Shown in pieces: positions 22,946 to 64,000 of a stretch of 64,000 nucleotides of DNA. A program made the translations under genes and the position numbers. The notes below the pieces were generated by a model that saw only the letters and a program-made list of their open reading frames with translations, ran no database searches and had not been told where the DNA came from. Source of the DNA: Fulvivirga imtechensis AK7. GTDB taxonomy: Bacteria; Bacteroidota; Bacteroidia; Cytophagales; Cyclobacteriaceae. Numbering within the stretch: the stretch's first letter is position 1; the number at the start of each line of letters is the position of its first letter. Location of the stretch: contig NZ_AMZN01000029.1 in the NCBI RefSeq assembly GCF_000331535.1, positions 1 to 64,000 of the forward strand. Reading direction: 5' to 3'.

Positions 22946-23079
22946 CTGTTTAAAAGCATATTTCTACTATTGTTCACCTATTGTACACCAATTCAGTTAG
23001 GGTTGTCTACATTGAATAGTTGCTTTTATTAAATTCTTCATGAAGAAAATATTTCTTTTTGCAGTTGGTTTTGTCGCTC

Positions 23080-29502: not shown

Positions 29503-29592
29503 GTCGTAAATCAGCATATCTTCTGATAAAAGTCATTTTAGCCTCTTGCGCTAGTCTTTACTTTTGAATTAAACAAATTAAGCGCCATAGCC

Positions 29593-30042
29593 ATGGAAAT
29601 GAGAATAAGACCCAAAAGCGACTACCTGAAGCAGGCAGGTTGGGAAGAGTTGTATGTTTTATCCGGCCATTGGAAATCTGATATGGATTTTTATTCGGAC
29701 GAATTGAATTTCCTTTCAAATCTTTTAAACAGGTATAGTATGTGGCTTACGGAAAATGATAATATAAGACGTGTCGAAAAGGTGAAGCTGAAGCTTTCAG
29801 TGCTTCAGGAATTTAAAAATGATTTGATCCATTGCGTTTTAAAACACATGAGGCATCTTAAAGATCTGATGGAAAACCCGTTTAGCTATGATGAGATAAT
29901 ATTTAGAAATGAGCATGCAGAACTGGAAGATGATTTTGCAGACTTCATTAAAGCGCACAGAACGCTCAAAAGAGAGGTGTTTTCTCTTACTTCCAGTATA
30001 GTGGAAAGTGAGAACATAAATAACTTACTACATGGTGGGTAA
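29593..30042 (+). CDS. Helical protein of unknown function
   Basis: A 149-residue soluble protein, almost entirely alpha-helical and charged, with coiled-coil character (LNFLSNLLNRYSMWLTENDN, then VEKVKLKLSVLQEFKNDLIH, and a third helix EHAELEDDFADFIKAHRTLK). Histidines recur at helix positions (ALKHMRHLKDL, EHAELE), vaguely like a four-helix bundle, but no metal-binding pattern is clear. It follows the Rcp1-like response regulator and may be its partner; that is context only. No family is recognised. Confidence 0.6.
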   Translation: MEMRIRPKSDYLKQAGWEELYVLSGHWKSDMDFYSDELNFLSNLLNRYSMWLTENDNIRRVEKVKLKLSVLQEFKNDLIHCVLKHMRHLKDLMENPFSYDEIIFRNEHAELEDDFADFIKAHRTLKREVFSLTSSIVESENINNLLHGG

Positions 30043-49635: not shown

Positions 49636-49787
49636 TTTTATGCTTCCCCGAAGCAAGTTAAGTAAGTTAGAGACAAGGCAGAATGGATCTTAAGCAGAGG
49701 GTTTTGAGATTTGTTGTAACAATTCAGGTTTAAATTTTTTTAAATAATACAAAGGATAGTAAAAGGTGATCCTTTTCAGCATATATC

Positions 49788-49801
49788 CTGATAAACGTCA
49801 T
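49788..49801. promoter_or_regulatory. FNR-like site upstream of the CoA-transferase gene
   Basis: CTGAT-AAAC-GTCAT matches the TGAT-N4-RTCA pattern with the spacing of the other sites. It ends 62 bases before the start codon. It is one mismatch from a perfect palindrome. Confidence 0.35.
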
Positions 49802-49863
49802 GAGGGAAGGGATGCCGGCACTGTAGATTTGCGCAAATAATTGATAACAATAACATTAGCAAT

Positions 49864-51150
49864 ATGAATGATCTGAAAATTGTAACTGCGGAAGAAGCGG
49901 TAGCAAACATACAATCAGGCAACAGGGTGTTTATACAGGGAGCCGCCATGACGCCAAAATTATTAATCGAAAAACTCTGCGACCGGTATAAAGAGCTGGA
50001 GGATGTGGAGTTTGTTCATATGCACACCGAAGGGCCGGCTCCATATACTAAGGAACCATATTGTAATTCCTTTAAAGTAAACAGTTGTTTTGTGGGTGGA
50101 AATGTGAGGGATGCGGTTAACTGTGGCAATGGCGATTATATTCCCATTTTTTTAAGTGAGATACACTGGCTGTTTAAAAAAGATATTTTGCCGATCAATG
50201 TCGCCCTGATCCAGGTTTCCGTGCCTGATGCACATGGTTTCTGTTCGCTGGGCACTTCCATTGACGTTACTCTTTCTGCCATTCAGTCTGCCAGAATAGT
50301 GATTGCGCAAATCAATCCGCAAGTGCCGAGAACTCATGGTGACGGTATTATACATATAAAGAATATCGATTATGCTGTGGAGGCAGATCAGCCGATACAT
50401 AGTGTAGCCTTACCTGAGCCCAATGAAACAGAAATACAGATCGGCAGGCATGTGGCTACTTTAATTGAAGATGGGGCAACTCTTCAAATGGGTATTGGCG
50501 CGATTCCTAATGTGGTGCTGGCCAATCTCTCCAATCATAGAAGATTGGGTATTCACACGGAGATGTTCTCAGATGGTATTCTTCCGTTAGTTGAATCGGG
50601 TGTTATTACCGGGGAAGAAAAGAAGGTGAAGCCAGGAAAGATCGTAAGTTGTTTTGCTATGGGTTCGGAAAAACTTTACAAATTCATGAATGACAACCCC
50701 ATCGTGCATATGAAGGAGGCCGCATACACCAATGATACGGCTATCATCAGACAGAACCCTAAGGTGACAGCGATCAATAGCGCTATAGAAATTGATATTA
50801 CCGGACAGGTATGTGCCGATACAATTGGAAATTACCAATATTCCGGTGTTGGCGGGCAAATGGATTTTATCAGAGGCGCTTCCTTGTCATGGGGAGGAAA
50901 ACCGATCATAGCTATGCCGTCAGTAACTTCTAAAGGCCAGACAAAAATTGTCCCTTACCTGAAACAAGGGGCAGGGGTAACGACCACAAGAGCACACGTG
51001 CATTATATTGCTACAGAATATGGCGTGGTAGACTTGTATGGCAAAAACCTGAAGCAGAGGGCCCAGGCATTGATATCAATAGCCCACCCGGATCATCAGG
51101 AGCAGTTGGAGAGAGAGGCATTCGAGCGGTTTAATGTTAAATGCTTATAA
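49864..51150 (+). CDS. Acetyl-CoA hydrolase/transferase-family protein (4-hydroxybutyrate CoA-transferase-like)
   Basis: A 428-residue CoA-transferase. Signatures are GNRVFIQGAAMTPKLLIEKL near the start, SVPDAHGFCSLGTSIDVTLS, the active-site glutamate E233 in IHTEMFSDGILPL, and GGQMDFIRGASLSWGGKPII. This family exchanges CoA between acyl-CoAs and acetate or 4-hydroxybutyrate through a glutamyl-CoA intermediate. The length and order of motifs fit the 4-hydroxybutyrate/acetate type, but the true acyl substrate is not certain. Monocistronic, with an intrinsic terminator about 115 bases downstream and an FNR-like site upstream. Confidence 0.88.
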   Translation: MNDLKIVTAEEAVANIQSGNRVFIQGAAMTPKLLIEKLCDRYKELEDVEFVHMHTEGPAPYTKEPYCNSFKVNSCFVGGNVRDAVNCGNGDYIPIFLSEIHWLFKKDILPINVALIQVSVPDAHGFCSLGTSIDVTLSAIQSARIVIAQINPQVPRTHGDGIIHIKNIDYAVEADQPIHSVALPEPNETEIQIGRHVATLIEDGATLQMGIGAIPNVVLANLSNHRRLGIHTEMFSDGILPLVESGVITGEEKKVKPGKIVSCFAMGSEKLYKFMNDNPIVHMKEAAYTNDTAIIRQNPKVTAINSAIEIDITGQVCADTIGNYQYSGVGGQMDFIRGASLSWGGKPIIAMPSVTSKGQTKIVPYLKQGAGVTTTRAHVHYIATEYGVVDLYGKNLKQRAQALISIAHPDHQEQLEREAFERFNVKCL

Positions 51151-51265
51151 GAGTGGTCAGCGCTAAAAATTAGCCAAGTTCACTTTCGTAGATTTATTAG
51201 ATGCCCATGTTGGTTTCAGCATGTTGCGATTAGGGGCAACTGTAGTATACAAAGGATTTGTTTAG

Positions 51266-51305
51266 AGAGGCGTGGAGAGATTTTCTCCGCGACCTCTGTT
51301 TTTCC
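51266..51305 (+). terminator. Intrinsic terminator of the CoA-transferase gene
   Basis: AGAGGCGTGGAGA pairs, with one bulge or mismatch, with TCTCCGCGACCTCT across a short ATT loop, and is followed by GTTTTT. It sits about 115 bases after the CoA-transferase stop. Confidence 0.7.
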
Positions 51306-51404
51306 GTAGATTTTCAGATTTTCTATATGATTGTCATATCGATGAGACCACCTATAAAGAATGGTTGATCCGGACTGGCTATAATTTTTGAAGAGCCTCT
51401 TCCT

Positions 51405-52478
51405 CTATTTGGCAAAATGCCATCTCTGAATTTGAAGCAGCTTATTCTTATCTTTAATAACAATTCTACCACTTCTCGTTTCAATGATACCTTCGTCCTT
51501 AAGGTCGGAGATCACACGGATCACCGATTCTGTGGCCGTACCCACCATGTTGGCCAGGTCATCGCGAGATATGCCTAACTCAAAGCTTTCTGTGCCTTCC
51601 GGATTAAATTTTTCGCTAACTGTCAGCAATGCTTCTGCCGTCCGCTGCCTCACCGAGTTGTAAGCCAGATTAAGTAGCTTTTGCTCTTTTTCAGTCACTT
51701 TATTGGATAACATCTCTATGAATTTTCTGGAAACATCACGGTTGGTATAGACAAGATCGAAAAACTCATCACGGGGAATGAAGATGATCTCTGAGTCTTC
51801 CATAGTCTCCGCACTGTCATCATGCTCTTTATTTTCAAGCAGTGTTTCATATCCAAAAAACTCACCGGCAGTATAAATACCGGTGATCAGCTCTTTTCCG
51901 TCTTCATTGGTACGTATACTCTTTACCTTTCCCGATACCAGGAAGTAAACATAATTGGCATATTCTCCTTCACGATATATGTCGTGTTTTTTCTTATACT
52001 GTCTCGCCTTTTTGTCAGCATGCAGGTGGTTGAGGTCGTGAACATTCTTAGCATCTTTAATAAATTCATTTAACCCCTCAGCATTGGACAGGTACTCCTT
52101 TCTTAGAGCTTCGGCCTTCCTCAACCGTATTTCTATGGCATCCAGTAGTTCAGTATCTTCAAAAGGCTTTGTTAAGTAGTCATCAGCGCCCAGATTCATT
52201 CCTTTTCTCATATCTGTGCGTTCGGCCTTAGCGGTGAGGAAGATAAAAGGGATATTTGCGGTAGCCTCTTTTTTTACCAGGATATGCAGCACGCCATAGC
52301 CATCCAGTTCCGGCATCATAATATCGCATATGATCAGGTCTGGCAACTCTTCCAGAGCCTTTTGCACACCTTCTTTTCCATTACCTGCTTCTACAGTCTT
52401 ATATCCGTCAAGCTCTAATATTTCTACAATGTTTTCTCTTATTTCTTTATTGTCTTCAATGACGAGTATCTTTTTCAT
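51405..52478 (-). CDS. Response regulator with Crp/Fnr-type output (REC-cNMP-HTH)
   Basis: A 357-residue fusion of three parts. The receiver domain (1-120) has acidic residues E8-D9, phosphorylation site D52 in LIICDIMMPELDG, and K104 region LTKPFED. A cyclic-nucleotide-binding-like beta-roll (about 160-280) contains DIYREGEYANYVYFLVSGKV. The HTH (about 300-345) contains ISRDDLANMVGTATESVIRV. The recognition helix carries T-E-S-V-I-R, more like FNR than Crp. It is encoded 45 bases downstream of the PAS histidine kinase, its likely partner. The fusion of receiver and Crp modules is a Bacteroidota pattern. Confidence 0.9.
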   Translation of the reverse strand: MKKILVIEDNKEIRENIVEILELDGYKTVEAGNGKEGVQKALEELPDLIICDIMMPELDGYGVLHILVKKEATANIPFIFLTAKAERTDMRKGMNLGADDYLTKPFEDTELLDAIEIRLRKAEALRKEYLSNAEGLNEFIKDAKNVHDLNHLHADKKARQYKKKHDIYREGEYANYVYFLVSGKVKSIRTNEDGKELITGIYTAGEFFGYETLLENKEHDDSAETMEDSEIIFIPRDEFFDLVYTNRDVSRKFIEMLSNKVTEKEQKLLNLAYNSVRQRTAEALLTVSEKFNPEGTESFELGISRDDLANMVGTATESVIRVISDLKDEGIIETRSGRIVIKDKNKLLQIQRWHFAK

Positions 52479-52523
52479 ATAGGTTTAAGTAGGTTTAATC
52501 TTCAATTATGTACGCTGTAAAAG

Positions 52524-53780
52524 CTATTTTGGCAGTACGATCGTAAATGTAGTGCCTTCACCAAATTTACTTTCAAAAGAGATATCACCATTTAGCATAT
52601 CTACATATTTTTTAACAATATTTAAGCCAAGGCCGGTACCCTGAATGTTCGTGACATTGCTGGCTCTGAAAAACCTTTCAAACATGTGCTTCTGTTCTTC
52701 TTCCGGAATACCTATACCCTGGTCGACTACCTGTAGCAACAATTTTTCTTCCATATCCAGGACTTTCACGATCACTTCGCCACCCGGTTCAGAATATTTA
52801 ATCGCATTGCTCAGCAAGTTGATGAGTATGTTTTTCAGTGTTTTTTTGTCCGAATATAAGTAATATTCCTCTTCCTCAGTATCGATATGAATTTTTTGTC
52901 CGTCTTTTACAATGGCATCCATCTCGTCTACCACATCTCGTAGCATATCCATCAACTCGATATCTTCATTGATGAGCTCCACCTTGCCTTCCTCCAATTT
53001 AGAGAGAGAAAGAAAGTCATTCAAAATGCCTGTGAGATTATTAATGGAAGATTTGATCTTATGAATGTGCTTTTTTCTTTTATCCTCTGTGTCAGGGGCT
53101 GTATATCGCTCTATCAGCGAGGCAGATGACAGTATGGTACTCAAAGGGGTTCTGAATTCATGAGAAGCCATGGATACAAACCTGGATTTCAGTTCATTCA
53201 GTTCTCGTTCGCGACTCAGCGCCACTTTGGTTTCTTCTTCAGCCTTTTTCCTGATGGTAATTTGTTCCTCCAGTTCTTTATTGGCTTTTTCCAACTGACT
53301 GATCGTTTGGTCTAGCTCGCGGGTGCGCTGTGTTACCCTTTTTTCCAGTTCTGCTGCGTAGACGATCAATTGTTCTTCGCTGCGTTTCAAAGCTTCTTCA
53401 ATTTTCTTTCGCTCGGTGATGTCTATTACAAAGGCTACGGTATGATCCACCCCATCAATTTGAGCCCTGTTTAGACTAATTTCGACCGGAAAGTCATCAC
53501 CATTTTTTCTTCGGCCCAGAAGATCCCTTCCTTTGCCCATTTGTCGGGGCGAAGGATGTTCTTCATACTCCTGACGATCTTTAACATGGCTATGACGTAA
53601 AGCAGGTGGAACCAATGACTCTATCTGCATGCCGATAAGTTCACCCTGCTCGTAGCCGAACAGGAGATGGCTGGCTTCATTGGCCAGGGCAATAACCCCC
53701 TTTTTGCTCACCACCAATATGCCTTCCTCGCAAGCCTCGAATATGGCTTCGTATGTTTCGGTATATTCTTCCTGTCCCAA
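52524..53780 (-). CDS. PAS-domain sensor histidine kinase
   Basis: A 418-residue soluble kinase with no membrane segments. A PAS domain (about 10-125, GILVVSKKGVIALANEASHL to VAFVIDITERKK) is followed by a coiled coil (about 126-195), the HisKA domain with phosphoacceptor H207 in SMASHEFRTPLST, and the ATPase with N box LINLLSNAIKYSEPG, G1 VVDQGIGIPEE and G2 GTGLGLNIVKKYVD. The start is TTG 53780, because the frame is closed just upstream and no ATG occurs before residue 51. A cytosolic PAS input suggests sensing of redox, oxygen or a metabolite; the ligand is unknown. It precedes the REC-Crp regulator in one operon. Confidence 0.9.
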   Translation of the reverse strand: MGQEEYTETYEAIFEACEEGILVVSKKGVIALANEASHLLFGYEQGELIGMQIESLVPPALRHSHVKDRQEYEEHPSPRQMGKGRDLLGRRKNGDDFPVEISLNRAQIDGVDHTVAFVIDITERKKIEEALKRSEEQLIVYAAELEKRVTQRTRELDQTISQLEKANKELEEQITIRKKAEEETKVALSRERELNELKSRFVSMASHEFRTPLSTILSSASLIERYTAPDTEDKRKKHIHKIKSSINNLTGILNDFLSLSKLEEGKVELINEDIELMDMLRDVVDEMDAIVKDGQKIHIDTEEEEYYLYSDKKTLKNILINLLSNAIKYSEPGGEVIVKVLDMEEKLLLQVVDQGIGIPEEEQKHMFERFFRASNVTNIQGTGLGLNIVKKYVDMLNGDISFESKFGEGTTFTIVLPK

Positions 53781-53825
53781 CTTTTTTTATTGATAAAATT
53801 AAAAATCTTTTCCTTTTTCAAAAAT

Positions 53826-53839
53826 ATGATAAAAATCAG
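53826..53839. promoter_or_regulatory. FNR-like palindrome between the kinase operon and uspA-like gene
   Basis: ATGAT-AAAA-ATCAG contains TGAT-N4-ATCA. It lies 46 bases upstream of the kinase start (minus strand) and 84 bases upstream of the universal stress protein start (plus strand), so it could serve either or both promoters. Confidence 0.5.
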
Positions 53840-53922
53840 TAACCCCCATGAGAGATTATCATAATGAGAACTTATGGAAGTACCTATTTTAGCATCAAGA
53901 ATAGGAGATAAATTGAAAATCC

Positions 53923-54393
53923 ATGGCTATGTTTAAGCGTATAATTTTTCCTACGGACTTTTCCGAATCCTCAGCCAAGGCCTTTTCCTACGTTTTGGAT
54001 GTTGTTCGCTCTCATCAGAGCGAACTCATAATTTTATATACATATCGATTAATTTCCGGTGCAGACGGGCGTTATTATGGCAATAAAATTTCTATAAAAA
54101 GAGAGCGTGAGGAGGAGGCTAACAAGCAGTTTGAACAATTGAAGCAATGTTATCCCGAATTATCGGACTTTGAACACCATTTTTTAACGGAGGTTGGCTT
54201 TGTCAGCGACAGGATATCCCTTGCAGTTGAACGTTTTAACATTGATCTTGTGGTGCTTTCTGAAAGTATTCAACAACAGTTGAAAGAAAAATGGGAGATG
54301 AGTGATGAAAATTTACCGGGGCGGTTCCATTGTCCTGTGCTACTGGTGCCTTCGGAGGTTGTGAATGAGCAGGAAACTGTGAAAGTAGGATAA
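53923..54393 (+). CDS. Universal stress protein (UspA family)
   Basis: A 156-residue single Usp domain. It begins MFKRIIFPTDFSESSAKAFS (ATG 53923, or 53929 two codons later) and has the strand SELIILYTYRL and the late CPVLLVPSE. The ATP-binding G-2x-G-9x-G-S/T motif is not recognisable in GRFHCPVLLVPSE, so it may be of the non-ATP-binding UspA type. Usp proteins accumulate in stress, including oxygen limitation. It shares its upstream region, which has an FNR-like palindrome, with the divergent kinase operon. Confidence 0.85.
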   Translation: MAMFKRIIFPTDFSESSAKAFSYVLDVVRSHQSELIILYTYRLISGADGRYYGNKISIKREREEEANKQFEQLKQCYPELSDFEHHFLTEVGFVSDRISLAVERFNIDLVVLSESIQQQLKEKWEMSDENLPGRFHCPVLLVPSEVVNEQETVKVG

Positions 54394-54415
54394 ATATCGA
54401 ATTAACCACACCGGC

Positions 54416-55129
54416 ATGAACCTTATTATAGATAATGTAAGGAAAGAATTAAAAGAAAATAGCGATGATGATACCAGGCAAAGCGGCTTCAGGTTTTTTA
54501 AAGAAGAAGTGAAGTTATATGGTGTAAAGACTGCTGTGGTAACCAAAATAGCCAAGCAACATTTGAAATCTATAAAAGAAAAACCAAAAGCGGAGATACT
54601 GGAGTTGTGCGAAGTACTGTGGCAGTCAGGGTATATGGAGGAATCATTCGTGGCGTGCCAGTGGTCGTATGCACTCAGGAAATCATATGAGCCGGTCGAT
54701 TTTAAAATTTTTGAAAAGTGGGTAAATACGTATGTCTGCAACTGGGCTTCATGTGACACCCTCTGTAACCACACGGTTGGGACATTTGTGGACATGTATC
54801 CGAAATATGTGAATGATCTGAAGAAATGGGCAAGATCAGATAACCGGTGGTCTAGAAGGGCCGCGGCTGTAACACTCATCATTCCCGCCAGAAAGGGAAA
54901 GTTTCTTCAAGACATCTTCGATATTGCGGATATATTACTGAATGATCAGGATGACCTGGTGCAAAAAGGTTATGGTTGGATGCTTAAAGCTGCCAGCGAA
55001 AGCCATCAAAGGGAAGTGTATGATTATGTAATAAAAAACAAAGCTTTCATGCCCAGAACCGCACTTAGGTATGCCATAGAAAAAATGCCGCCAGAGCTGA
55101 GGAAGAAGGCAATGGAGAAGCCAATCTGA
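54416..55129 (+). CDS. AlkD-like DNA alkylation repair protein
   Basis: A 237-residue helical HEAT-repeat protein. It contains RFFKEEVKLYGVKTAVVTKI, CQWSYALRKSYEPVDFKIFE, WVNTYVCNWASCDTLCNHTV and WSRRAAAVTLIIPARKGKFL, the order seen in DNA alkylation repair proteins. The last block, DDLVQKGYGWMLKAAS, also fits. AlkD removes positively charged alkylpurines from DNA. It starts 23 bases after the universal stress gene and may be co-transcribed. It is only distantly similar to the one at 12729-13400. Confidence 0.84.
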   Translation: MNLIIDNVRKELKENSDDDTRQSGFRFFKEEVKLYGVKTAVVTKIAKQHLKSIKEKPKAEILELCEVLWQSGYMEESFVACQWSYALRKSYEPVDFKIFEKWVNTYVCNWASCDTLCNHTVGTFVDMYPKYVNDLKKWARSDNRWSRRAAAVTLIIPARKGKFLQDIFDIADILLNDQDDLVQKGYGWMLKAASESHQREVYDYVIKNKAFMPRTALRYAIEKMPPELRKKAMEKPI

Positions 55130-55227
55130 AATCTGAAACCGTAGCGCAGCAGAGGTTCACGAGGGGTCGAGGAGCATGGTTACGCGTATGAGTAAATCTG
55201 AGATCTGAAATCTTAAAACCGTAGCGC
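55128..55227. repeat. Short direct repeat at gene end
   Basis: GAAATCTGAAACCGTAGCGC (55128-55147) and GAAATCTTAAAACCGTAGCG (55207-55226) are near copies about 80 bases apart. They lie between the AlkD-like gene and the convergent Crp/Fnr gene. The intervening words (ATCTGAGATCTGAAATC) are also repetitive. Confidence 0.5.
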
Positions 55228-55275
55228 GGGTAGCGTAACCAGGGAATCGGTCTTCGATCTTCTCACATCTTACAT

Positions 55276-55872
55276 CTAATCCCTAAAAACCTTTCTGTTC
55301 ACAATTTTCAACTCCTTTTTTCGCGCCAGCGCCTTTACGGTGCGGATAACCGTTTCCACCCTTAGGCCGGTCATGTCGGCAATTTGCTGGCGTGTGAAGG
55401 GTACCTCATATTCCAGTTCAGGGGTATCTTCTTTTTCTTTGAAATAGTCGATCAATGTCATGATCCTGTGCTCGGGGGTATAGCTGGAGATCTCTTTGGC
55501 GATCATGGCTTTGAACTGGAGCCGTTTGCTTAGAATTGAGCAGAATTTCAAATGGAGTTCGAAGTTCTCTTTGAGCAGATCAATAAAATTATCTTTAGAC
55601 AGCTTCCATACTACAGAATCAATTACTGCATCTGCATTGGCAGGGTAGGGGAAATTGCCGAAGAGAGGTGGCTCACCAAAGCTTTCCCCTTCTTTGAACA
55701 TCCCCTGAATGAACTCCTGCCCATCAGAACTGAAATTGTTCATTTTGATCACTCCTTCCGCTACCTGATAGTAGTTTAATGGCGAACTGCCCTCCAGAAA
55801 AAGGATCTCATTTTTCTTTAAGCTAACCTGTCTGGCACCGTATTTCTGCAGCGTAGATGTATCTATTGTCAT
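55276..55872 (-). CDS. Crp/Fnr-family regulator with FNR-like recognition helix
   Basis: A 198-residue regulator: beta-roll sensor domain (about 15-120, NEILFLEGSSPLNYYQVAEG), dimer helix and HTH (about 150-195, VPFTRQQIADMTGLRVETVI). The recognition helix reads R-V-E-T-V-I-R, with Val-Glu and Arg spaced as in FNR (V-E-T-I-S-R), so TGAT-type half-sites are expected. There is only one cysteine, so it cannot hold an FNR-type iron-sulfur cluster; a heme, nitric oxide or nucleotide signal is possible. It is divergent from hemN, with an FNR-like palindrome 35 bases before its own start. It is the best candidate for the regulator of the sites listed here. Confidence 0.86.
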   Translation of the reverse strand: MTIDTSTLQKYGARQVSLKKNEILFLEGSSPLNYYQVAEGVIKMNNFSSDGQEFIQGMFKEGESFGEPPLFGNFPYPANADAVIDSVVWKLSKDNFIDLLKENFELHLKFCSILSKRLQFKAMIAKEISSYTPEHRIMTLIDYFKEKEDTPELEYEVPFTRQQIADMTGLRVETVIRTVKALARKKELKIVNRKVFRD

Positions 55873-55906
55873 GAGTCAAAGATAATACCGGAAGGTTAAC
55901 AAAAAT

Positions 55907-55920
55907 CTGATTTATATCAG
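55907..55920. promoter_or_regulatory. FNR-like palindrome between the Crp/Fnr gene and hemN
   Basis: CTGAT-TTAT-ATCAG is a perfect palindrome of the TGAT-N4-ATCA type. It is 35 bases upstream of the regulator and 74 bases upstream of hemN, so it could give autoregulation and hemN activation. Confidence 0.6.
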
Positions 55921-55993
55921 GGTTTTACCTGAAGCAAGTCATGAATAAAACAGGGCTTAACCACTACTTTAGCAGAAAAATTGGAATGAGGGT

Positions 55994-57358
55994 ATGACCA
56001 CGCAAGAGTTAATCAAAAAGTACAATGTGCCTGCACCAAGGTATACCAGCTACCCCACAGTACCCATGTGGGAAGAGGAAAAGATTGGTACCGATGCCTG
56101 GATGCGGATCGTAAAGAAAACCTTTGTTGAGAGTAACCGTGAAAAAGGTATTAGTCTGTACATACACCTGCCGTTCTGTGAAAGCTTGTGCACTTATTGT
56201 GGCTGCAATACCAGGATCACAAAAAATCATAAAGTAGAGACCGGGTATATCGAAGCTCTTCACGCAGAGTGGCAAATGTATGTGGATAGTTGGGAAGACA
56301 AGCCTGTGATCAGGGAATTGCATCTTGGTGGTGGTACACCTACTTTTTTTAGCCCTGAGAACCTGCAGTTGTTATTACAGGGCATATTAGAAAAGGCCAA
56401 GGTACATTCTGATCATGAATTTAGTTTTGAAGGGCATCCTAATAATACTACGGAAGCACACTTGCAGACATTGTACGACCTGGGGTTCAGCAGAGTGAGT
56501 TTTGGTATTCAGGACCTGGACCTGAAAGTGCAGCAGGCTATCAACAGGATCCAGCCTTATGAAAATGTAAAGACCGCTACGGAAGCGGCAAGACGGGTGG
56601 GTTATACTTCTGTCAACTTTGATCTGATCTATGGCCTGCCATTTCAAACCCCCGAAAGTGTTTCGAATACCATCGACCAGGTAGGACAACTGATGCCGGA
56701 AAGGATAGCATTCTACAGCTATGCTCATGTGCCGTGGATCAAGCCTGCTCAGAGGGGGTATTCTGAGGCTGATCTTCCCAGCGATGAAAACAAAAGAAAG
56801 CTGTACGAGTTGGGCAAAGAAAAATTTGTGAGAATGGGATATAAAGATATTGGAATGGATCATTTTGCACTTCCTCATGATGTGCTATATCAGGCTGCTG
56901 AAAATGATACCCTTCACAGAAATTTCATGGGTTATACTACCTGTAATACTGATCTGTTACTGGGCTTGGGCACCTCATCGATCAGCGATGCGAAATATGG
57001 CTATATGCAAAATTTAAAGGTGGTAGAGAAGTATAAACAGGCGGTTTTGGAAGGACAGCCAGCCATTTTGAAAGGTCATATAATGACAGCGGAAGATCTT
57101 TTGCTCAAAAAGCATATCCTGGAATTGTTGTGTACCGGCCAGTGCTTTTTAGGAGAGGAAATTATCAGGATAATAGGCGGAGAAGCTATAGTTCAACTCC
57201 ATACCATGAGAAAGGAGGGCTTGCTGACCCTTAATAAAAGTCTGTTAAAAGTGACTGATATGGGCAAAGCATTTATAAGAAATATCGCAATGGTATTTGA
57301 TATGCGATTAAAACGCGCCAAAGCCGCATCGGAACCCGTATTTAGTAAAGCTATTTGA
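55994..57358 (+). CDS. hemN: Oxygen-independent coproporphyrinogen III oxidase
   Basis: A 454-residue radical-SAM enzyme. The 4Fe-4S motif is C62-x3-C66-x2-C69 (HLPFCESLCTYCGCNT). Further family features are LHLGGGTPTF, the RVSFGIQDLD segment, and GHIMTAEDLLLKKHILELLC near the end. The N-terminal NVPAPRYTSYPTVPMW is typical of true HemN rather than of the HemW-like group. It converts coproporphyrinogen III to protoporphyrinogen IX without oxygen, allowing heme synthesis in anoxia. It overlaps or abuts the QueD-like gene downstream and is divergent from a Crp/Fnr gene. Confidence 0.93.
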   Translation: MTTQELIKKYNVPAPRYTSYPTVPMWEEEKIGTDAWMRIVKKTFVESNREKGISLYIHLPFCESLCTYCGCNTRITKNHKVETGYIEALHAEWQMYVDSWEDKPVIRELHLGGGTPTFFSPENLQLLLQGILEKAKVHSDHEFSFEGHPNNTTEAHLQTLYDLGFSRVSFGIQDLDLKVQQAINRIQPYENVKTATEAARRVGYTSVNFDLIYGLPFQTPESVSNTIDQVGQLMPERIAFYSYAHVPWIKPAQRGYSEADLPSDENKRKLYELGKEKFVRMGYKDIGMDHFALPHDVLYQAAENDTLHRNFMGYTTCNTDLLLGLGTSSISDAKYGYMQNLKVVEKYKQAVLEGQPAILKGHIMTAEDLLLKKHILELLCTGQCFLGEEIIRIIGGEAIVQLHTMRKEGLLTLNKSLLKVTDMGKAFIRNIAMVFDMRLKRAKAASEPVFSKAI

Positions 57359-57363
57359 TCTCT

Positions 57364-57804
57364 ATGCAGGTATTACGTGTCACCAAGGAGTTTGATTTTG
57401 AAATGGCGCATGCACTTCACGGGTATGATGGTAAATGTGCCAATATTCATGGGCATACATACTATCTGTCTGTGACAGTCATTGGCAAGCCAGGAGCAAA
57501 GGAGGGCGATCCCAAATTAGGAATGGTGGTGGATTTTTCAGTATTGAAAATGATAGTGAAGGAGCAGGTTGTCGATCAATTTGATCACGCTTTGGTGTTA
57601 AAGGACACAGACCCGCTGGTGGCCGGTATCCATGGTTTTAGTCACGTGATAAAGACCAGCTATCAACCTACGTGCGAAAACCTTCTGATCGATTTTGTCA
57701 GTCGCATAGAAGAAAAAATAAAAGCCCCCCTCAGGCTATATTCCGTTTGCCTGAGGGAAACCAATACCAGCTATGCTTCCTGGTTTGCAGACGACAATTT
57801 GTGA
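57364..57804 (+). CDS. queD: 6-carboxytetrahydropterin synthase/PTPS-family protein
   Basis: ATG 57364 (MQVLRVTKEFDFEMAHALHG) gives 146 residues; the frame also allows TTG 57355, which overlaps the hemN stop. Zinc ligands are H16, H29 and H31 (MAHALHG and CANIHGHTY), and the catalytic Cys is C25 in KCANIHGH. FDHALVLKDTDP and CLRETNTSYASW carry the other active-site acids. QueD makes 6-carboxytetrahydropterin for queuosine, while relatives make pterin for folate or other cofactors. Being in one transcript with hemN and near oxygen-limitation genes, its pterin product may serve a redox cofactor; this is speculative. The gene symbol is the family name. Confidence 0.8.
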   Translation: MQVLRVTKEFDFEMAHALHGYDGKCANIHGHTYYLSVTVIGKPGAKEGDPKLGMVVDFSVLKMIVKEQVVDQFDHALVLKDTDPLVAGIHGFSHVIKTSYQPTCENLLIDFVSRIEEKIKAPLRLYSVCLRETNTSYASWFADDNL

Positions 57805-59591
57805 ATATGATCTTGTATATTCTGCACTTCGGTTTTGGCACTTTCCAAATGCTCTACAGTTAAATTGTCTGAGAAACACTGTTTTGAGGCAAGGGGCAGA
57901 TCGAGGTAGTATGAAATACCTGCCAAAAGATTTTCGCAGAAATTGGTATAACTCCTGAGGGTTTTATTGTCTGGAGAGTAGGTTTTATCCACCTGCTCGC
58001 GAATATAGTTTACATAAAGCCTCAGTTCTTTCACAAACATATGTGGTCGTTCGGTATTTTCCAGGAGATCGGCCCTGTCATAAATGTGATCGGTCATCTC
58101 CTGAAGTGTGGTCAATTTTGAAAAGTAGGCAATGTTGGGTCCCGGACAAATGGTTACTGACTCCAGTTTTTTGACAAAGGGTATTTTGTACTGGTGAGTA
58201 ACAGAATTACTGAGTCCGATACACAAACACTCTTTGCTAAGCACTTCATCAAGTTGATCCTGGAGCTGTTCCTTTGGAAGGTCAAGGGTTTGCAATTGTT
58301 CGATTTTCATCTTTTGATACCTCCTGGAAGCAGTGCAGATGGGCTCATTGGTAAATTCTGTGTTTGATACCAGGTATTTTTCCGTACATGGACTTCCGGG
58401 AAATCCTCTTTTTATCCTCTCCCTTTTTTCAAGATCGGAAGACGTCCCTTTCAGATAGTTGAACCGTACTCCCAGAGGTGAGTTGGTGCTGAGTACTACA
58501 TCTTTTTCCCCGGCTTCGGTCAGGCGTGTCAGAGTTGCTTCATCAACCGTAGTAGCTTCAGGGCATAGCAGGAATGGAGTTCCCCAGCCGGTACTGTCAA
58601 TGTTATAATATTCTCGAAGGAAAACATCCTCCTGGTGTGTGCCGATCCCCCCTTGTACGGTGAATTTTATCGGGTGTGGCCGTTCATAAGTGGGTTTTCC
58701 AAGGGCTTCCATCGCAGGATTGTAGATTTCAAATAAACTGTTAATAAGTTCTTCTCTTCTATTTTTAAATTCATCCAGAATAGGTCCCATCAGCAGTCCT
58801 TCTGTGGCAAAAGCATGACCTCCGCAGTTGAGCCCCGATTCCACCCTGAACTCACTCACCCAAATTCCTTTCTTAGCCAGATATTTACCCTGTATCAAAG
58901 CAGACCGGAAGTCGCTGACTTTGATGATGATCTTTTTATCAAACTGGCCCCAGCCTTTGGGATCAAACGCTTCAAATTTTTCGAGGTAGTTGAAAAGTCT
59001 GGGGTTCATGCCGGCAGAAAAGATGACCGCTGAATCTTTTAGCTCGCTTTCGGCATAACCTTTTAAAGCAGTTAATGCGTCCGATCCGTCTTCAATCAGC
59101 TCTCCGCTTTTGCTGTAGTTGTTTTTGTCCAGCTTTGTCATAATATTCACCTCTATAGCGCCCGGTTTCATTTCTTCTTTTAGGAAATGTTCGAGCGTGT
59201 GTTTTTCCCGCTCACTCATTGAGCGCATCATCTCCCGGTATATAGCCTTCAGGTTACTATCTTCAGGTAGCATGTCGAAGTACTTTACTATTTCCGAACC
59301 AGCTTCAAATGCTGAAGACTTGAGTTTTTCAAATTGATTTTTGACAATCCTGCTGAGCAGGTTTAGATAATCTGTGATCCTTTTGGCCCTGTAATCTTCC
59401 TCGTCCGGTGTAATGGGGCTATATGGTTCATCGTATTGCTGATAGTAGTATTTACGCATCGTTTCTACCAGGTTATCTTCGATGATGGATACTGCTGATG
59501 TAATACCGAAACGCGCTACTTTAATAGGTGAATCAATGGTGAATGCTAACCCCATAACAGGGATATGAAAGTGGTGAATGGCTGTCTGCAT
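57771..59591 (-). CDS. Unrecognised 606-residue protein with a possible TIM-barrel-like core and many cysteines
   Basis: A 606-residue soluble protein with no signal peptide. The first 40 residues (IPVMGLAFTIDSPIKVARFG) look like a TIM-barrel entry strand. Later features are MTKLDKNNYS near 152, DKKIIIKVSDFRSALIQGKY near 218, ESGLNCGGHAFATEGLLMGP near 251, FTVQGGIGTHQEDVFLREYY near 310 and STGWGTPFLLCPEATTVDEA near 333. The GGIG and STGWGTPFL pieces resemble phosphate-binding loops of flavin-dependent TIM-barrel enzymes. Cysteines at 256, 343, 402, 419, 455, 457 and 482 could hold an iron-sulfur cluster. I know no named family. It sits among hemN, queD, the Crp/Fnr gene and nrdJ, with an FNR-like palindrome 52 bases upstream. 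Its 3' end overlaps queD by 34 bases, tail to tail. Confidence 0.7.
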   Translation of the reverse strand: MQTAIHHFHIPVMGLAFTIDSPIKVARFGITSAVSIIEDNLVETMRKYYYQQYDEPYSPITPDEEDYRAKRITDYLNLLSRIVKNQFEKLKSSAFEAGSEIVKYFDMLPEDSNLKAIYREMMRSMSEREKHTLEHFLKEEMKPGAIEVNIMTKLDKNNYSKSGELIEDGSDALTALKGYAESELKDSAVIFSAGMNPRLFNYLEKFEAFDPKGWGQFDKKIIIKVSDFRSALIQGKYLAKKGIWVSEFRVESGLNCGGHAFATEGLLMGPILDEFKNRREELINSLFEIYNPAMEALGKPTYERPHPIKFTVQGGIGTHQEDVFLREYYNIDSTGWGTPFLLCPEATTVDEATLTRLTEAGEKDVVLSTNSPLGVRFNYLKGTSSDLEKRERIKRGFPGSPCTEKYLVSNTEFTNEPICTASRRYQKMKIEQLQTLDLPKEQLQDQLDEVLSKECLCIGLSNSVTHQYKIPFVKKLESVTICPGPNIAYFSKLTTLQEMTDHIYDRADLLENTERPHMFVKELRLYVNYIREQVDKTYSPDNKTLRSYTNFCENLLAGISYYLDLPLASKQCFSDNLTVEHLESAKTEVQNIQDHIHKLSSANQEA

Positions 59592-59642
59592 ATTCTAAAT
59601 ATTAGTTCCCCACAAAGGTGGCAATCAGAAGGCTTTAATAAT

Positions 59643-59656
59643 ATGATCTGGATCAT
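59643..59656. promoter_or_regulatory. FNR-like palindrome upstream of the 606-residue protein gene
   Basis: ATGAT-CTGG-ATCAT is a perfect TGAT-N4-ATCA palindrome, 52 bases before the minus-strand start at 59591. Confidence 0.58.
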
Positions 59657-59712
59657 GTGGAAGTCGGGAGACCGAAGACCGAAGTGGTAATGATGATGAG
59701 TAGTGAGTAATT

Positions 59713-60178: not shown

Positions 60179-62731
60179 TCACCCACACTTGCTGTAACCG
60201 CACTGGCTGCACTGGAGGCAAGATTCCTGGTACACCATAGATGCTTGTTTACATTGAGGGCAAGCGTTATTCGTAGGCACGGTACCATCGGGGATGAACT
60301 GAAGCAGGGCGCGTTTCACACCATTTCTCCAGGTGTTCAGCGTCTGTCCATCCAGGAATAGGTCCTCGACCATTTCCACTACATATTTTATCGGCATACC
60401 GTGGCGCAGTACACCACTGATCAGCTTCGCGTAGTTCCAATACTCCTTGTTAAAGGTTCGCGACAGCCCTTCGATAGTCACTTTATAGCCATCTTTATCC
60501 TGGTACTGAAAATCGTAGCGGTTTTTGCCATTCTGTCCTTTGCTTTTGATCACTTTTCCCTTCTTTACCTTTGATAATATGGAGAAAGAATCCTCGGCTC
60601 GTCCGGTAAAGATCTCGTAGGGTTTGTTGTGATACAGACCAACCACAGCTACCCAATTTTCTTCATTATTTTTAAACTGAAGCACAGCGGCTTCCAGCTC
60701 GGCAGGACGTTTTGGCGGATTGGTCTCTACGAAATCGTGTTTCTCCTTTTTTTGTTCGCTTACCAATATACCGGCCCTGCTGCCCTCGCGATATACTGTG
60801 ATGCCTTTACAACCCTGCCGCCAGGCTTCCAGGTAGATTTCTGAGATCATATCTTGCGGTGTTTCCTCCGGTAGATTCACTGTAATACTAATGGAATGAT
60901 CCACCCACTTTTGGAGTACACTTTGTAGTGTTACCTTGTCAGACCAATCAATTTGCTCGCTGCTGGCGCCTGCATAGGGAGATTTCTCCACCAGTTGCTT
61001 CAGGTCATTTGCTTTTAGTGTTTCTATTTCGTCAGGCTGAAATCCCTGTGCCTCCAGCCATCTTTTGAATCCATGATGAAAAATAGCAAATTCTTCGTAA
61101 TAGTCGCCATTATCATCTACAAAGTAGGGTTTATCATTGTCTGGCTTAGCATTTACCTTCTTTCTTCGGGAGTAGTACAGTCTGAACACAGGCTCTATGC
61201 CTGATGTTGTTTGTGCCAGCAAGCTCGTGGATCCGGTTGGTGCTATGGTTAGCATAGAAATATTTCTTCTGCCTTGCACTCTCATTTCCTCCACTAATTC
61301 CGGATCTATTGCTTCTATCCGGCTGAGAAATGGTTGATCCGTCTCTTTTTCCGCATCATAAATAGGAAATGCACCCCTCTCTTTTGCCAGGTTTACGGAG
61401 CTCCTGTAAGCCTCTGTCACCAGCGTGCTTTGCACTTTCTCCGCCATAATAATAGATGCCGAAGAGCCGTATTTAATGCCCAGGTTGGCCAGCATATCTC
61501 CAAGTCCGGTGATGCCTAACCCGGTTCTCCTTCCTTTTTCACACTTTTCTTTGATTTTCAGCCACAGGGTTCGCTCTACTTGCTTATAGCTTTCCGGTTC
61601 GGGGTCGCTGTCTATTTTCCCTATGATCTTGTCTATTTTTTCCAGCTCCAGGTCTACCAGGTCATCCATCAGTCTCAAAGCGATCCGCACGTGCTGCTTG
61701 AAGAGGTCAAAATCAAAATGAGCGTTTTGTTGAAAGGGCTCCTTTACATAACCAGTCAGGTTGATAGCCATGAGTCTGCAACTGTCGTACGGGCATAGGG
61801 GTATTTCACCACAGGGATTGGTGGAAACTGTGCCAAAGCCTTCGTCTGCATACCGGTCGGGCAATGATTCACGAATGATGGTATCCCAGAAGATCACCCC
61901 TGGTTCGGCCGATTTCCAGGCGCCTTCTGTTATCTCCTGCCAGATGTCCATGGCTCTTATTGATCTTTTTACTGTAGGAGACGGACTATTGACGGGGAAT
62001 TGCTGCTGGTATTCCGCATCCTCTTCAACGGCTTGCATAAATTCGTCATCCAGCTTCAGGGAAATATTGGCACCTGTTACGGCTGTTGTGTCTCCCTTGG
62101 CTTTGGCAAATGAGATAGCTTCGGGGTGTTTTGCTGCCAGCGTTAGCATGAGTGCACCTCTTCGACCACCCTGAGCCACCTCCCGGGTGGAGTTGGAAAA
62201 CCGGTGCATGAAGGGCACAATGCCCGTGGCCGTAAGCGCAGAGTTGTTGACGGTACTACCTTCGGGCCGGATGTGCGACAAGTCAAGGCCTACACCCCCG
62301 CGTCTTTTCATCAGTTGTACCAGCTCTTCATCCAGATTAAGCACAGCACCATAGGAGTCAGCGTCTTGTTCTACACCCACAACGAAGCAGTTGGACAGCG
62401 ATACGTGCTGAAAATTGTTACCGATGCCCGACATAGGGCTTCCCTGTGGGATGATATACTTAAAATTTCTCAACAGTTCGTATATCTCGTCTTCAAGCAG
62501 AGGCAGGGGGTATTTTGCTTCTATCCGTGCGAACTCACGGGCCAGCCTCCGATGCATATCGTCAGGCGATCTTTCATAATAATGTCCCTTGCTGTCCTTT
62601 AGCGCATACTTACTCATCCACACTTCGGCAGCAAGCGTGTCGCCCTGGAAATAGGCAATGCTTTGCTTTCGAACTTCTTCTTCTGCATACTTCTTTAAGG
62701 TTTCTGTGGGTTCCGGTAGTTTAGCGATCAT
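60179..62731 (-). CDS. nrdJ: Adenosylcobalamin-dependent (class II) ribonucleotide reductase
   Basis: An 850-residue class II enzyme that makes deoxynucleotides using a cobalamin-generated thiyl radical, so it works with or without oxygen. Features are NFQHVSLSNCFVVGV near 125 (redox Cys), RGGVGLDLSHIRPEGS, the catalytic NPCGEIPLCPYDSCRLMAIN near 310, GRRTGLGITGLGDML, and TIAPTGSTSLLAQTTSG. The C-terminal zinc-ribbon-like tail is ACPQCKQASMVYQESCLQCS plus CGYSKC. No intein is visible. It is 19 bases downstream of the hemerythrin-like gene and so the last member of a ric-hemerythrin-nrdJ operon. This indicates dependence on B12 for DNA synthesis under low oxygen. Confidence 0.93.
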   Translation of the reverse strand: MIAKLPEPTETLKKYAEEEVRKQSIAYFQGDTLAAEVWMSKYALKDSKGHYYERSPDDMHRRLAREFARIEAKYPLPLLEDEIYELLRNFKYIIPQGSPMSGIGNNFQHVSLSNCFVVGVEQDADSYGAVLNLDEELVQLMKRRGGVGLDLSHIRPEGSTVNNSALTATGIVPFMHRFSNSTREVAQGGRRGALMLTLAAKHPEAISFAKAKGDTTAVTGANISLKLDDEFMQAVEEDAEYQQQFPVNSPSPTVKRSIRAMDIWQEITEGAWKSAEPGVIFWDTIIRESLPDRYADEGFGTVSTNPCGEIPLCPYDSCRLMAINLTGYVKEPFQQNAHFDFDLFKQHVRIALRLMDDLVDLELEKIDKIIGKIDSDPEPESYKQVERTLWLKIKEKCEKGRRTGLGITGLGDMLANLGIKYGSSASIIMAEKVQSTLVTEAYRSSVNLAKERGAFPIYDAEKETDQPFLSRIEAIDPELVEEMRVQGRRNISMLTIAPTGSTSLLAQTTSGIEPVFRLYYSRRKKVNAKPDNDKPYFVDDNGDYYEEFAIFHHGFKRWLEAQGFQPDEIETLKANDLKQLVEKSPYAGASSEQIDWSDKVTLQSVLQKWVDHSISITVNLPEETPQDMISEIYLEAWRQGCKGITVYREGSRAGILVSEQKKEKHDFVETNPPKRPAELEAAVLQFKNNEENWVAVVGLYHNKPYEIFTGRAEDSFSILSKVKKGKVIKSKGQNGKNRYDFQYQDKDGYKVTIEGLSRTFNKEYWNYAKLISGVLRHGMPIKYVVEMVEDLFLDGQTLNTWRNGVKRALLQFIPDGTVPTNNACPQCKQASMVYQESCLQCSQCGYSKCG

Positions 62732-62750: not shown

Positions 62751-63284
62751 TTACATAGGATTCAAAATGGCCTCCATCTCAATTATTTTTGGAAAGAGGA
62801 TGTTATTTTCCAACAGTGTCAGCTCATGCCAACGGGTTTTCAGTTCTTTCAATTTGCGATATGTGGTTTCGAAAACCGGACTGTCTTCTGCCGGAAGAGC
62901 AGCCTGGCGCATCAATTTCAGGAGCAGGTCGAATCGGAGCTTTTCCGCCTTATGCTCATAGTACATCTTGTGAATGGAAGGACACACCGAATACAGGGTA
63001 GACTTTCGTTTAGTACGGTGCTTCTTCAATTCGGTCGTGTACCTTCTTACATAAGGCAGAATGGTAATCGCCTCTTTGCCAAAATGGGCTTCCAGCTTCC
63101 AGGCACAAAAGGAAAAAAGGTTTTGCATTTCATATACCTGTGGGTATTCATGTCCGTATATCTCTACCAGATGCCCGAAACTGGTTTTGGCTTCAGAGAT
63201 CAGTTGAAGAATGGCTATATGGTGACCCTTGATCACATAGTTAGCTAACAGATCGGCCGGCCATAAATAATAGTCTACCTTCAT
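62751..63284 (-). CDS. Hemerythrin-like protein related to the C-terminal domain of Ric
   Basis: A 177-residue helical protein whose motifs parallel the hemerythrin part of the Ric protein upstream: LLANYVIKGHHIAILQLISE (cf. YIVNNHHKYVRDN), VYEMQNLFSF, KLEAHFGKEAITILPYVRRY and ELTLLENNILFPK. The paralogue has HVHLENNILFPK, where the His four residues before the conserved Glu would be an iron ligand. Here that position is Leu, while the Glu is kept. A His six residues before the Glu (W-H-E-L) might compensate. It may bind a mono- or di-iron site in a modified way. It lacks the N-terminal ScdA domain. It lies 88 bases after Ric and 19 before nrdJ. Confidence 0.7.
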   Translation of the reverse strand: MKVDYYLWPADLLANYVIKGHHIAILQLISEAKTSFGHLVEIYGHEYPQVYEMQNLFSFCAWKLEAHFGKEAITILPYVRRYTTELKKHRTKRKSTLYSVCPSIHKMYYEHKAEKLRFDLLLKLMRQAALPAEDSPVFETTYRKLKELKTRWHELTLLENNILFPKIIEMEAILNPM

Positions 63285-63372: not shown

Positions 63373-64000
63373 TTAAAAACTATCTTCCAGGGCAATGGCC
63401 TTAGGAAACAGGATATTGTTCTCCAGGTGAACATGCTGATGCAGGTCGTCTTCGAAAGCTTGCAACTTTTCAAACAGCAGACGGTATGAAGCACATGCAT
63501 CTTCCGGTATGGTATACTGTTCCGACAGTCTTCGAATGTCATCAAATCCCTGGCCTGCTTCCGAATGTTCATCTTCCATCATCATGATGGGGTTGCGTAT
63601 TGAACCAAAAGGAAAATGCACTTTTCCTTTGGAAACCATAGTGCGAATAGCGGGGAAAAGTACCTGCTCCTCTTTTTCCATATGCTCCAGCAGGTCTTCT
63701 GTGATCTCGCTGACAATTCCGGCAATTTCAATCAACTCAGGATGAAACTCCCCGTGTACCTGGGCTACCTTATCAGCCAAATTCTCGAGGTCCTGCGCGT
63801 TATCTCTGACATATTTATGATGATTATTGACGATATATTCTGTCAGGAAGTCTAATGACCATTCGTTGGCCCGCATGTTGAACTGTGGAATTTCCTCTGC
63901 CTTGTCAATTTCCTGCAGGATCTCATCTGACCTGACGCCAGCTTCGGCACATGCCTCGTCTAAAGGACGGGCGCCTTTACAGCAGAAATCTATATTGTAT
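63373..64000 (-). CDS. ric: Iron-sulfur cluster repair di-iron protein (Ric/ScdA/YtfE), runs off right edge
   Basis: The minus-strand frame stays open from the stop at 63373 to the window edge, so the start codon is outside. Visible parts are the end of the ScdA N-terminal domain (IDFCCKGARPLDEACAEAGV, with the double Cys) and a hemerythrin domain: YIVNNHHKYVRDNA, VHGEFHPE, EHMEKEEQVLFPAIR, MMEDEHSEAGQGF and HVHLENNILFPKA. These His and Glu residues bind two irons. The family repairs iron-sulfur clusters damaged by nitric oxide or peroxide. It heads the operon with a hemerythrin-like gene and nrdJ. An internal ATG at 63876 is not the true start because conserved sequence continues upstream. 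Confidence 0.9.
   Translation of the reverse strand, partial: YNIDFCCKGARPLDEACAEAGVRSDEILQEIDKAEEIPQFNMRANEWSLDFLTEYIVNNHHKYVRDNAQDLENLADKVAQVHGEFHPELIEIAGIVSEITEDLLEHMEKEEQVLFPAIRTMVSKGKVHFPFGSIRNPIMMMEDEHSEAGQGFDDIRRLSEQYTIPEDACASYRLLFEKLQAFEDDLHQHVHLENNILFPKAIALEDSF

Follow-up and report, generated by a model that had tools for sequence, protein, structure and literature searches.

Escherichia coli FNR reads the core TGAT-N4-ATCA, flanked by T, with a recognition helix that starts V-E-T and has Ser before Arg. In Pseudomonas aeruginosa, hemN, going by the title of a 1998 paper by Rompf, is reportedly under both Anr and Dnr, and Anr directly regulates dnr according to the part of PMC12403760 consulted; Rodionov 2005, in the sections used here, gives operators for DNR, NnrR and HcpR, none of which equals TATGAY-N4-RTCATA, and mentions Bacteroides in the context of HcpR (PMC1274295). 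We analyzed a window of 64 kb (contig C29, positions 1-64000) from the 6.74-Mb genome of the marine bacterium Fulvivirga imtechensis AK7, which encodes a Crp/Fnr-family regulator at 55276, of a type we call class A, next to hemN, and carries predicted operators with the core TGAY-N4-RTCA. We lean toward the interpretation that the window contains the regulatory end of a Crp/Fnr network with two layers, like ANR above DNR, that responds to nitrogen oxides and to a shortage of oxygen. The switch probably lets oxygen-sensing and nitric oxide (NO)-sensing regulators activate haem, NO-defence and anaerobic genes, and it recurs in many relatives. No description of an operator or regulator of the class-A type was found in the literature searched, which covered few subscription papers.

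A sequence-only reading had listed six TGAT-N4-RTCA sites in the window and considered their number notable. We found all six where it had placed them, but the number alone is not notable, because dinucleotide shuffles also reach the observed counts: the window has 12 strand-matches to TGAT-N4-RTCA at nine places, against 6.5 +/- 3.0 after shuffling (6 of 100 shuffles reach 12), and nine matches to TGAY-N4-RTCA, against 5.1 +/- 2.6 expected (12 of 100 reach nine). The core is at most weakly enriched, and with the shuffle test not significant we dropped the 12-mer count as evidence. Three core matches are absent from that list: 29524 and, within genes, 24633 and 50765.

What exceeds chance in the window is the coupling of site and -7 box. 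The flavobacterial sigma-A -7 box is TAnnTTTG at -12 to -5 (PMC9723704, in the part consulted), and we observed four matches to TGAY-N4-RTCA-N23-TAnnTTTG (three exact, one with one mismatch) where 0.15 were expected (0 of 100 shuffles). The exact boxes belong to crp (the gene at 55276), a CoA-transferase gene and the site at 29524, and the box with one mismatch to the gene of a 606-amino-acid (606-aa) protein. Counting both promoter spacings described below, with up to one box mismatch, gave six distinct coupled sites in the 64 kb, that at 9397 included; a same-genome sample (40 stretches of contigs C6, C55, C27 and C33, a non-random choice) gave 13 in 798 kb, or 1.04 expected per window, for a Poisson P = 7e-4 that is optimistic because the window was chosen for having sites. 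None of 500 shuffles reached eight oriented hits, and core spacers of 0, 2, 6, 8, 10 and 12 gave no hits. That the sites are due to chance, a short palindrome having simply caught the eye, is hardly credible: the barely enriched core and the unsupported site at 23080 agree with it, whereas the spacer controls, conservation and fixed promoter spacing contradict it for the motif, and single sites may still be chance matches.

Other patterns were set aside. The E. coli FNR box (TTGATnnnnATCAA) was rejected as the motif, with two one-mismatch matches in the window against 5.1 expected; no exact copy of this FNR operator lies in the window, and class-A sites carry TATGAY instead. A genome control with the reversed pattern (381 versus 50; 87 versus 25) was not taken as evidence because codon bias can produce such an excess. 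No RNA element in the window matched Rfam at gathering scores.

We determined promoter geometry across 80 named Bacteroidota class-A loci (1.515 Mb; the best 80 of at least 567, close relatives included), the closest being that of Fulvivirga marina (Cytophagales; Crp identity 80%). Exact TAnnTTTG stood 29 or 30 bases past the site centre in 52 of 119 promoter-oriented sequences, with at most one at each other offset. As the box spans -12 to -5, this offset puts the site centre at -41.5 or -42.5, the position of class II activators, and by the predicted promoters the sites have class II placement (centre near -41.5). A core spacer of 4 gave 60, 44 and 14 hits at offsets 29, 30 and 51, and spacers of 0, 2, 6, 8, 10 and 12 at most four at any offset. 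At hemN, 11 of 19 sites had a box (up to one mismatch) at offset 51-52, which corresponds to -63.5 or -64.5. The 606-aa gene showed the same offset, with the same tolerance, at 11 of 16 sites in genomes without class A, versus the 29-base spacing at three of six sites and the longer spacing at none of six in class-A genomes (4 of its 30 loci, with broken 5' ends, were omitted from this count). In the window, the two spacings meet between crp and hemN:

55276..55872, minus strand: Crp/Fnr-family regulator of class A, 198 aa (Pfam cNMP_binding and HTH_Crp_2; helix GLRVETVIR)
55877..55884, minus strand: predicted -7 box of the crp promoter, TATCTTTG; operator centre at -41.5
55908..55919, no strand assigned: predicted operator between crp and hemN, TCTGATTTATATCAGG, with FNR-type flanks; fits both promoters
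55965..55972, plus strand: predicted -7 box of the hemN promoter, TACTTTAG, one mismatch; operator centre at -63.5
55994..57358, plus strand: hemN, oxygen-independent coproporphyrinogen III oxidase (TIGR00538, 421.6 bits, cut-off 325)

Because both spacings match, the palindrome at 55908-55919 would serve crp from -41.5 and hemN from -63.5 (one box mismatch). The sequence-only reading had proposed a site at the promoter of 55276 itself, and this palindrome is indeed centred at -41.5 from an exact -7 box. The remaining coupled promoters with the shorter spacing are as follows:

57771..59591, minus strand: 606-aa conserved protein, six invariant Cys in seven sequences
59613..59620, minus strand: predicted -7 box of the 606-aa gene, CACCTTTG, one mismatch; operator centre at -41.5
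59642..59657, no strand assigned: predicted operator upstream of the 606-aa gene, TATGATCTGGATCATG, class-A type; score 17.8, one mismatch to TATGAYNNNNRTCATA
49789..49800, plus strand: predicted operator of the CoA-transferase promoter, CCTGATAAACGTCATG, with FNR-type flanks
49824..49831, plus strand: predicted -7 box of the CoA-transferase gene, TAGATTTG; operator centre at -41.5
49864..51150, plus strand: CoA-transferase, butyryl-CoA:acetate type (Pfam PF13336/PF02550)
29524..29535, plus strand: extra predicted operator, TCTGATAAAAGTCATT, missed by the sequence-only reading; coupled to an exact -7 box
29559..29566, plus strand: predicted -7 box of the extra operator, TACTTTTG; operator centre at -41.5
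29593..30042, plus strand: 149-aa protein encoded after the extra operator; Pfam and PHROGs gave no match

A TATGA-type site also precedes the 606-aa gene in F. marina and Chryseolinea. The 606-aa protein has no match in Pfam, NCBIfam, PHROGs or PADLOC; its low-confidence model resembles the TIM-barrel proteins PfaD, FabX and nitronate monooxygenase, and Foldseek found no structure matching this model at an E-value as good as 0.001. The CoA-transferase scores 287.7 bits against TIGR03948, far under the equivalog cut-off of 674.8. Just upstream of its gene lies an element of about 600 bases (49063-49685) that resembles a miniature inverted-repeat transposable element, with inverted ends of 66 nt that are 89% complementary and enclose 448 nt. 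A dispersed repeat of about 160 bases is present twice in the window, at 22760-22960 and 59690-59880, and again in locus L062 of the same genome.

Class-A regulators read, by our prediction, a longer operator than the core. Among the 60 genomes of the family (own included), the other 59 hold 14 orthologues of 55276 at 40-63%; the next hits, clearly set apart, are at 33%. TATGAY-N4-RTCATA occurs 18 times in these 14 loci (227 kb, own locus not counted), with 16 copies in the intergenic DNA that makes up 11.6% of the sequence, and is present in 10 of the 14; spacers of 0-12 other than 4 give zero or one copy. The named loci hold 86 copies, 79 of them intergenic, spread over 66 of the 80 (other spacers, 0-2). 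When 121 distinct intergenic TGAY-N4-RTCA sites of class-A loci were chosen blind to their flanks, the base before TGAY was A in 64% and T in 10%. We scored the six listed sites with a 16-mer matrix built from 24 seeds picked by ATGAY-N4-RTCAT, so that its inner flanks are fixed by construction, obtaining 17.8 for 59643, 8.5 for 53826, 4.0 for 55907, 3.7 for 49788, 3.1 for 23080 and -1.2 for 9397. The motif TGAT-N4-RTCA proposed earlier is thus sound as a core and incomplete for 55276, whose 16-mer TATGAY-N4-RTCATA fits well only at 59643 among the six. In the whole genome, ATGAYYYRRRTCAT is found at six places, four of which are 59643, C29:64344, C29:67599 and C21:6210; three of the six share a stretch of no more than 8 kb. 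An excess of the strict 16-mer across the genome was rejected as a class-A marker: no genome has many copies (0 to 15 each), and the count alone does not mark class A because certain genomes that lack it are also rich in ATGAYYYRRRTCAT (G059, 9; G004, 8; G041, 7).

From these data we propose that the FNR-like protein encoded at C21:20097, perhaps aided by the receiver-Crp protein encoded at 51405, would bind the core TGAY-N4-RTCA and activate hemN from -63.5 and both crp 55276 and the CoA-transferase gene from -41.5. Crp 55276 would then bind TATGAY-N4-RTCATA at -41.5 or -42.5 and activate the 606-aa gene, the hemerythrin-nrdJ genes, the globin operon and norB; its signal would probably be NO, as for DNR. 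Under the flank rule, 55276 would prefer TATGATTTGAATCATA-type and FNR CCTGATTTATATCAGG-type sites: the TATGA flanks at norB, globin, hemerythrin and nosZ suggest the 55276 type, and the flanks at hemN, the CoA-transferase gene and crp an FNR-like type. Computation establishes the motif with its spacer and conservation, the difference in flanks and the distances to the promoters.

The flank difference was assessed against 20 FNR loci from genomes without class A (383 kb). TA half-flanks were present at 25 of 34 sites of the -41.5 type near class A versus 7 of 28 near FNR (P = 3e-4), and since the flanks differ at the same class II position, the TATGA extension goes with class A and not with promoter position. 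Strict sites numbered 18 in 227 kb near class A versus 3 in 383 kb near FNR, about tenfold denser, and a strong site upstream of norB was found in three of five class-A genomes versus none of six others; in our genome, it is the site at C21:6210 that precedes the nitric oxide reductase gene (norB). All three comparisons speak against an account that we consider unlikely, in which FNR is the sole reader of all sites, class A is a neighbour of little importance or with no connection, and a TATGA flank is no more than the mark of a strong promoter. This account draws on a recognition helix, E-T/S-x-I-R, that with few exceptions is common to all three Crp classes described below, on core sites at hemN, the PAS kinase gene and the CoA-transferase gene in genomes without class A (e.g., the same-genus G036, where NorB and the 606-aa gene are missing too), and on the FNR gene's own promoter in our genome, which carries a TATGA-type site, TATGACCTTCATCATA, at -41.5. 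As class A is absent there, another regulator must read those sites in such genomes, FNR with its CxxC or the receiver-Crp protein. The shared helix also makes cross-binding likely.

To return to the two-layer network, the targets most plainly linked to NO are found beyond the window, at C29:64344, C29:67599 and C21:6210, so that the earlier claim of a low-oxygen/NO-type regulon stood as to type and not as to where these targets are. Downstream of the strong site at C29:67599 come the genes of a 383-aa protein, a truncated globin and a 437-aa protein; the 437-aa (C29:64714-66027; L065:714-2027) and 383-aa (C29:66391-67542; L065:2391-3542) proteins appear hydrophobic by eye and match no family, and the latter, as we take it from inspection, resembles NnrS. 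A class-A-type site at C29:64344 stands upstream of a run of genes in one direction with small gaps, which enters the window at its end:

63373..64000, minus strand: hemerythrin protein 2 (PF01814), a 306-aa frame running to C29:64293
62751..63284, minus strand: hemerythrin-domain protein 1 (PF01814, 26.0 bits, cut-off 25.3)
60179..62731, minus strand: nrdJ, B12-dependent ribonucleotide reductase (TIGR02504, 538 bits)

nrdJ follows the gene of hemerythrin 1 on the same strand, 19 bp behind, and probably belongs to the hemerythrin operon.

Genes of the named loci were annotated in part, by similarity clusters with ten representatives assigned by Pfam. After sites scoring at least 14, the commonest gene product is a 96-aa membrane protein accompanied by globin; others are cytochrome c, hemerythrin, NosZ, fasciclin, the 437-aa and 606-aa proteins, B12-dependent reductases and NorB. 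Of the 80 named loci, 54 encode a globin and 16 NosZ no more than 10 kb from class A, against 1 and 0 of 20 near FNR. Inside the family, the difference between genes beside class A and beside FNR is seen for hemerythrin (6 of 14 versus 1 of 20, P = 0.01) and NosZ (4 of 14 versus 0 of 20, P = 0.02). We also observed that the hydrophobic protein of about 96 aa (e.g., L159:10714-11004), of no known family, adjoins class-A sites in 42 of the 80 named loci and is usually followed by a truncated-globin gene.

Of the 137 operons downstream of class-A sites, 4 hold norB and 15 nosZ, and the presence of both among the targets makes NO the most likely class-A signal; the signal itself, like activation and the pairing of protein and site, we infer. 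A different signal (oxygen via another cofactor, N2O-linked redox or haem), with a regulon that is generally micro-oxic, seems possible but doubtful to us: globin, hemerythrin, cytochrome c and B12-dependent ribonucleotide reductases fit oxygen shortage equally, and NorB co-occurrence is not significant (see below), while norB and nosZ among the targets count against it.

We next consider the candidate readers. The genome has six Crp-like matches, and at least three of the proteins could, by their sequences, read the core: 55276, the FNR at C21:20097, with an N-terminal CxxC and further cysteines, and the receiver-Crp protein at 51405. The tree resolves three groups (support 99/96 for class A, 92/91 for FNR and 89/58 for receiver-Crp). 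55276 belongs to the superfamily by PF00027 and PF13545 and by its best Foldseek match, to a CRP (E 5e-16, TM-score 0.77); its AlphaFold2 model is confident (predicted local distance difference test, pLDDT, 89.6) and has a Crp-like fold. As the sequence-only reading had it, 55276 has no cysteine cluster: its one Cys is not conserved among orthologues, and the four cysteine ligands of FNR are lacking. It also lacks the Arg-Ser phosphate-binding cassette of CRP, in which Arg82 and Ser83 contact the cAMP phosphate; Tyr76-Pro77 align with these residues, both invariant in A1 (the class-A alignment, from which the frameshifted copy L019 was left out) and Tyr76 also in alignment A3. With no Fe-S ligands and this Tyr-Pro pair, neither FNR nor cAMP chemistry is expected for class A. 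His107 is nearly invariant in A1 and A3, and His135 in A1 only; our guess is that the two could serve haem.

The receiver-Crp protein is encoded with a kinase beside another of the listed sites:

51405..52478, minus strand: response regulator with receiver, Crp-type effector and helix-turn-helix domains, helix TATESVIR (Pfam Response_reg, cNMP_binding and HTH_Crp_2); missed by the sequence-only reading
52524..53780, minus strand: PAS-domain sensor histidine kinase (Pfam PAS, HisKA and HATPase_c)
53827..53838, no strand assigned: predicted operator between the PAS kinase and Usp genes, TATGATAAAAATCAGT; core match, conserved upstream of the kinase gene
53923..54393, plus strand: universal stress protein (Pfam Usp)

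Frames of 340-393 aa with Crp-like matches occur in many family genomes. This protein, phosphorylated by the PAS kinase at 52524, might itself be the main reader of core sites, with the kinase signal (redox or haem via PAS) as input in place of Fe-S or NO, which we rate as improbable, below FNR as sole reader. It is encoded beside sites, its helix is almost that of FNR and its operon has a conserved site; on the other side, promoter spacing at 53826 is poor, and individual genomes (e.g., G037) have the hemN site and no kinase match at E 1e-50.

Conservation among relatives, which the sequence-only reading had made a test of its regulon, separates the listed sites (counts include the own locus). 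TGAY-N4-RTCA lies within 300 bases upstream of hemN in 17 of 30 loci (the best 30 of 48 genomes matched), with 19 hits for a spacer of 4 and 0-3 for other spacers up to 10; upstream of the PAS kinase gene in 11 of 14 loci (10 of 24 with partial matches removed), with 11 hits and 0-1 for the others; and upstream of the CoA-transferase gene in 9 of 24 loci (from 34 matches), with 9 hits and 0-2. The genes at the remaining two listed sites, an extracytoplasmic function (ECF) sigma gene and an L-PSP gene, served as negative controls; the site at the ECF sigma gene (23176) was found in 1 of 24 loci, our own, with no preferred spacer. The six sites therefore do not form one regulon: 49788, 53826, 55907 and 59643 hold together, and 9397, with other flanks, and 23080 fall away. 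The latter, with no conservation and no -7 box within one mismatch, was rejected as a member and looks like chance. The former was rejected for its flanks AGTGA/TCACT (GTGA-N6-TCAC); a relative has two copies of TGTGAT-N4-RTCACA. The site (9398-9409) has a near -7 box and lies between a Crp-family gene (8796-9359; SRETLSR helix) and an L-PSP-family gene (9467-9937), and sites at the latter occur in three of eight loci, mostly with GTGA/TCAC flanks. An R-E helix goes with G at operator position 3 (PMC1274295, in the part consulted), and 9397 is probably the operator of the neighbouring R-E Crp, forming a separate cognate pair. Other genes near sites encode a DNA-alkylation-repair-type protein (54416) and a QueD-like protein (57355).

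Together with the shared helix and the FNR gene's TATGA-type site, several results weigh against the two-layer network. The strict site is missing from 4 of the 14 family class-A loci (L041, L043, L045 and L048), and norB lacks a strong site in two of five class-A genomes. Genome-wide, NorB is found in 5 of 15 class-A genomes versus 6 of 45 others (P = 0.12, not significant) and the 606-aa gene in 6 of 15 versus 25 of 45 (P = 0.38); a globin gene inside the family is beside class A in 4 of 14 loci versus beside FNR in 1 of 20 (P = 0.13). The 53826 site has poor promoter spacing on both sides. Three of the genome's six best 16-mers have no -7 box (up to one mismatch) at the expected offset, namely C29:64344, which slightly lowers our confidence in the model, and two on C6, which precede a haem A synthase gene and a GNAT-like gene. 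In only 19 of 80 named loci does a core site stand in the 350 bases upstream of the class-A gene, so FNR does not control class A throughout.

Genes for NosZ and NorB are numerous in Bacteroidota, and no operator or regulator for them was found described in the literature searched. The results supply a testable 16-mer, a named regulator gene and fixed promoter spacings usable for genome-wide prediction, as well as new candidate NO-stress genes: those of the 606-aa protein, the 96-aa membrane protein beside globin and the 437- and 383-aa membrane proteins. More broadly, and with rather less than even confidence, we suggest that across Bacteroidota (flavobacteria, Pedobacter, Cytophagales) a Crp/Fnr clade, unnamed in the literature searched, may be the phylum's NO regulator, with its own operator, TATGAYYNNRRTCATA, at -41.5/-42.5. 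The core sites used by FNR would lie at -41.5 or -63.5 and have different flanks, often with C, and genes such as that of the 606-aa FMN/Fe-S-like enzyme would switch control by flank and helical turn upon gain or loss of a regulator.

Compared with known systems, 55276 shares with E. coli CRP the fold, at 18-20% identity in structural alignments, and differs in having Tyr-Pro where CRP has Arg82-Ser83. The 55276 system has the core TGAT-N4-ATCA and V-E-T helix start of E. coli FNR, but 55276 lacks the Cys cluster, has Ile for Ser before Arg, and its sites have the flank TA for T. HcpR of Bacteroides, Porphyromonas, Clostridia and others is a Crp/Fnr regulator for nitrosative stress that also occurs in this phylum (PMC1274295 and PMC12750200, in the parts consulted). 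By the same portion of PMC1274295, the HcpR2 operator is GTAACnnnnGTTAC and position 181 is Pro (Ser or Gln in few species), whereas class A has Glu there (RVETxIR, 14 of 14 rows of A1) and TGAY half-sites. DNR is the best PDB profile match of class A (84 bits, versus 80 for the best CRP) and falls outside the class-A clade in the tree, on a long branch. Its consensus, CTTGATnnnnATCAAG (PMC1274295, same portion), agrees with TATGAYnnnnRTCATA in the core and differs in the flank. As with DNR, genes for NO and N2O reductases (norB and nosZ operons) lie downstream of class-A sites. Closest in design is ANR-DNR of P. aeruginosa, where, in the part of PMC12403760 consulted, an Fe-S FNR-type protein stands, as proposed here, above a Crp/Fnr protein with a different cofactor, the two have overlapping FNR-like boxes, and nor, nos, hemN and a hemerythrin are among the network genes.

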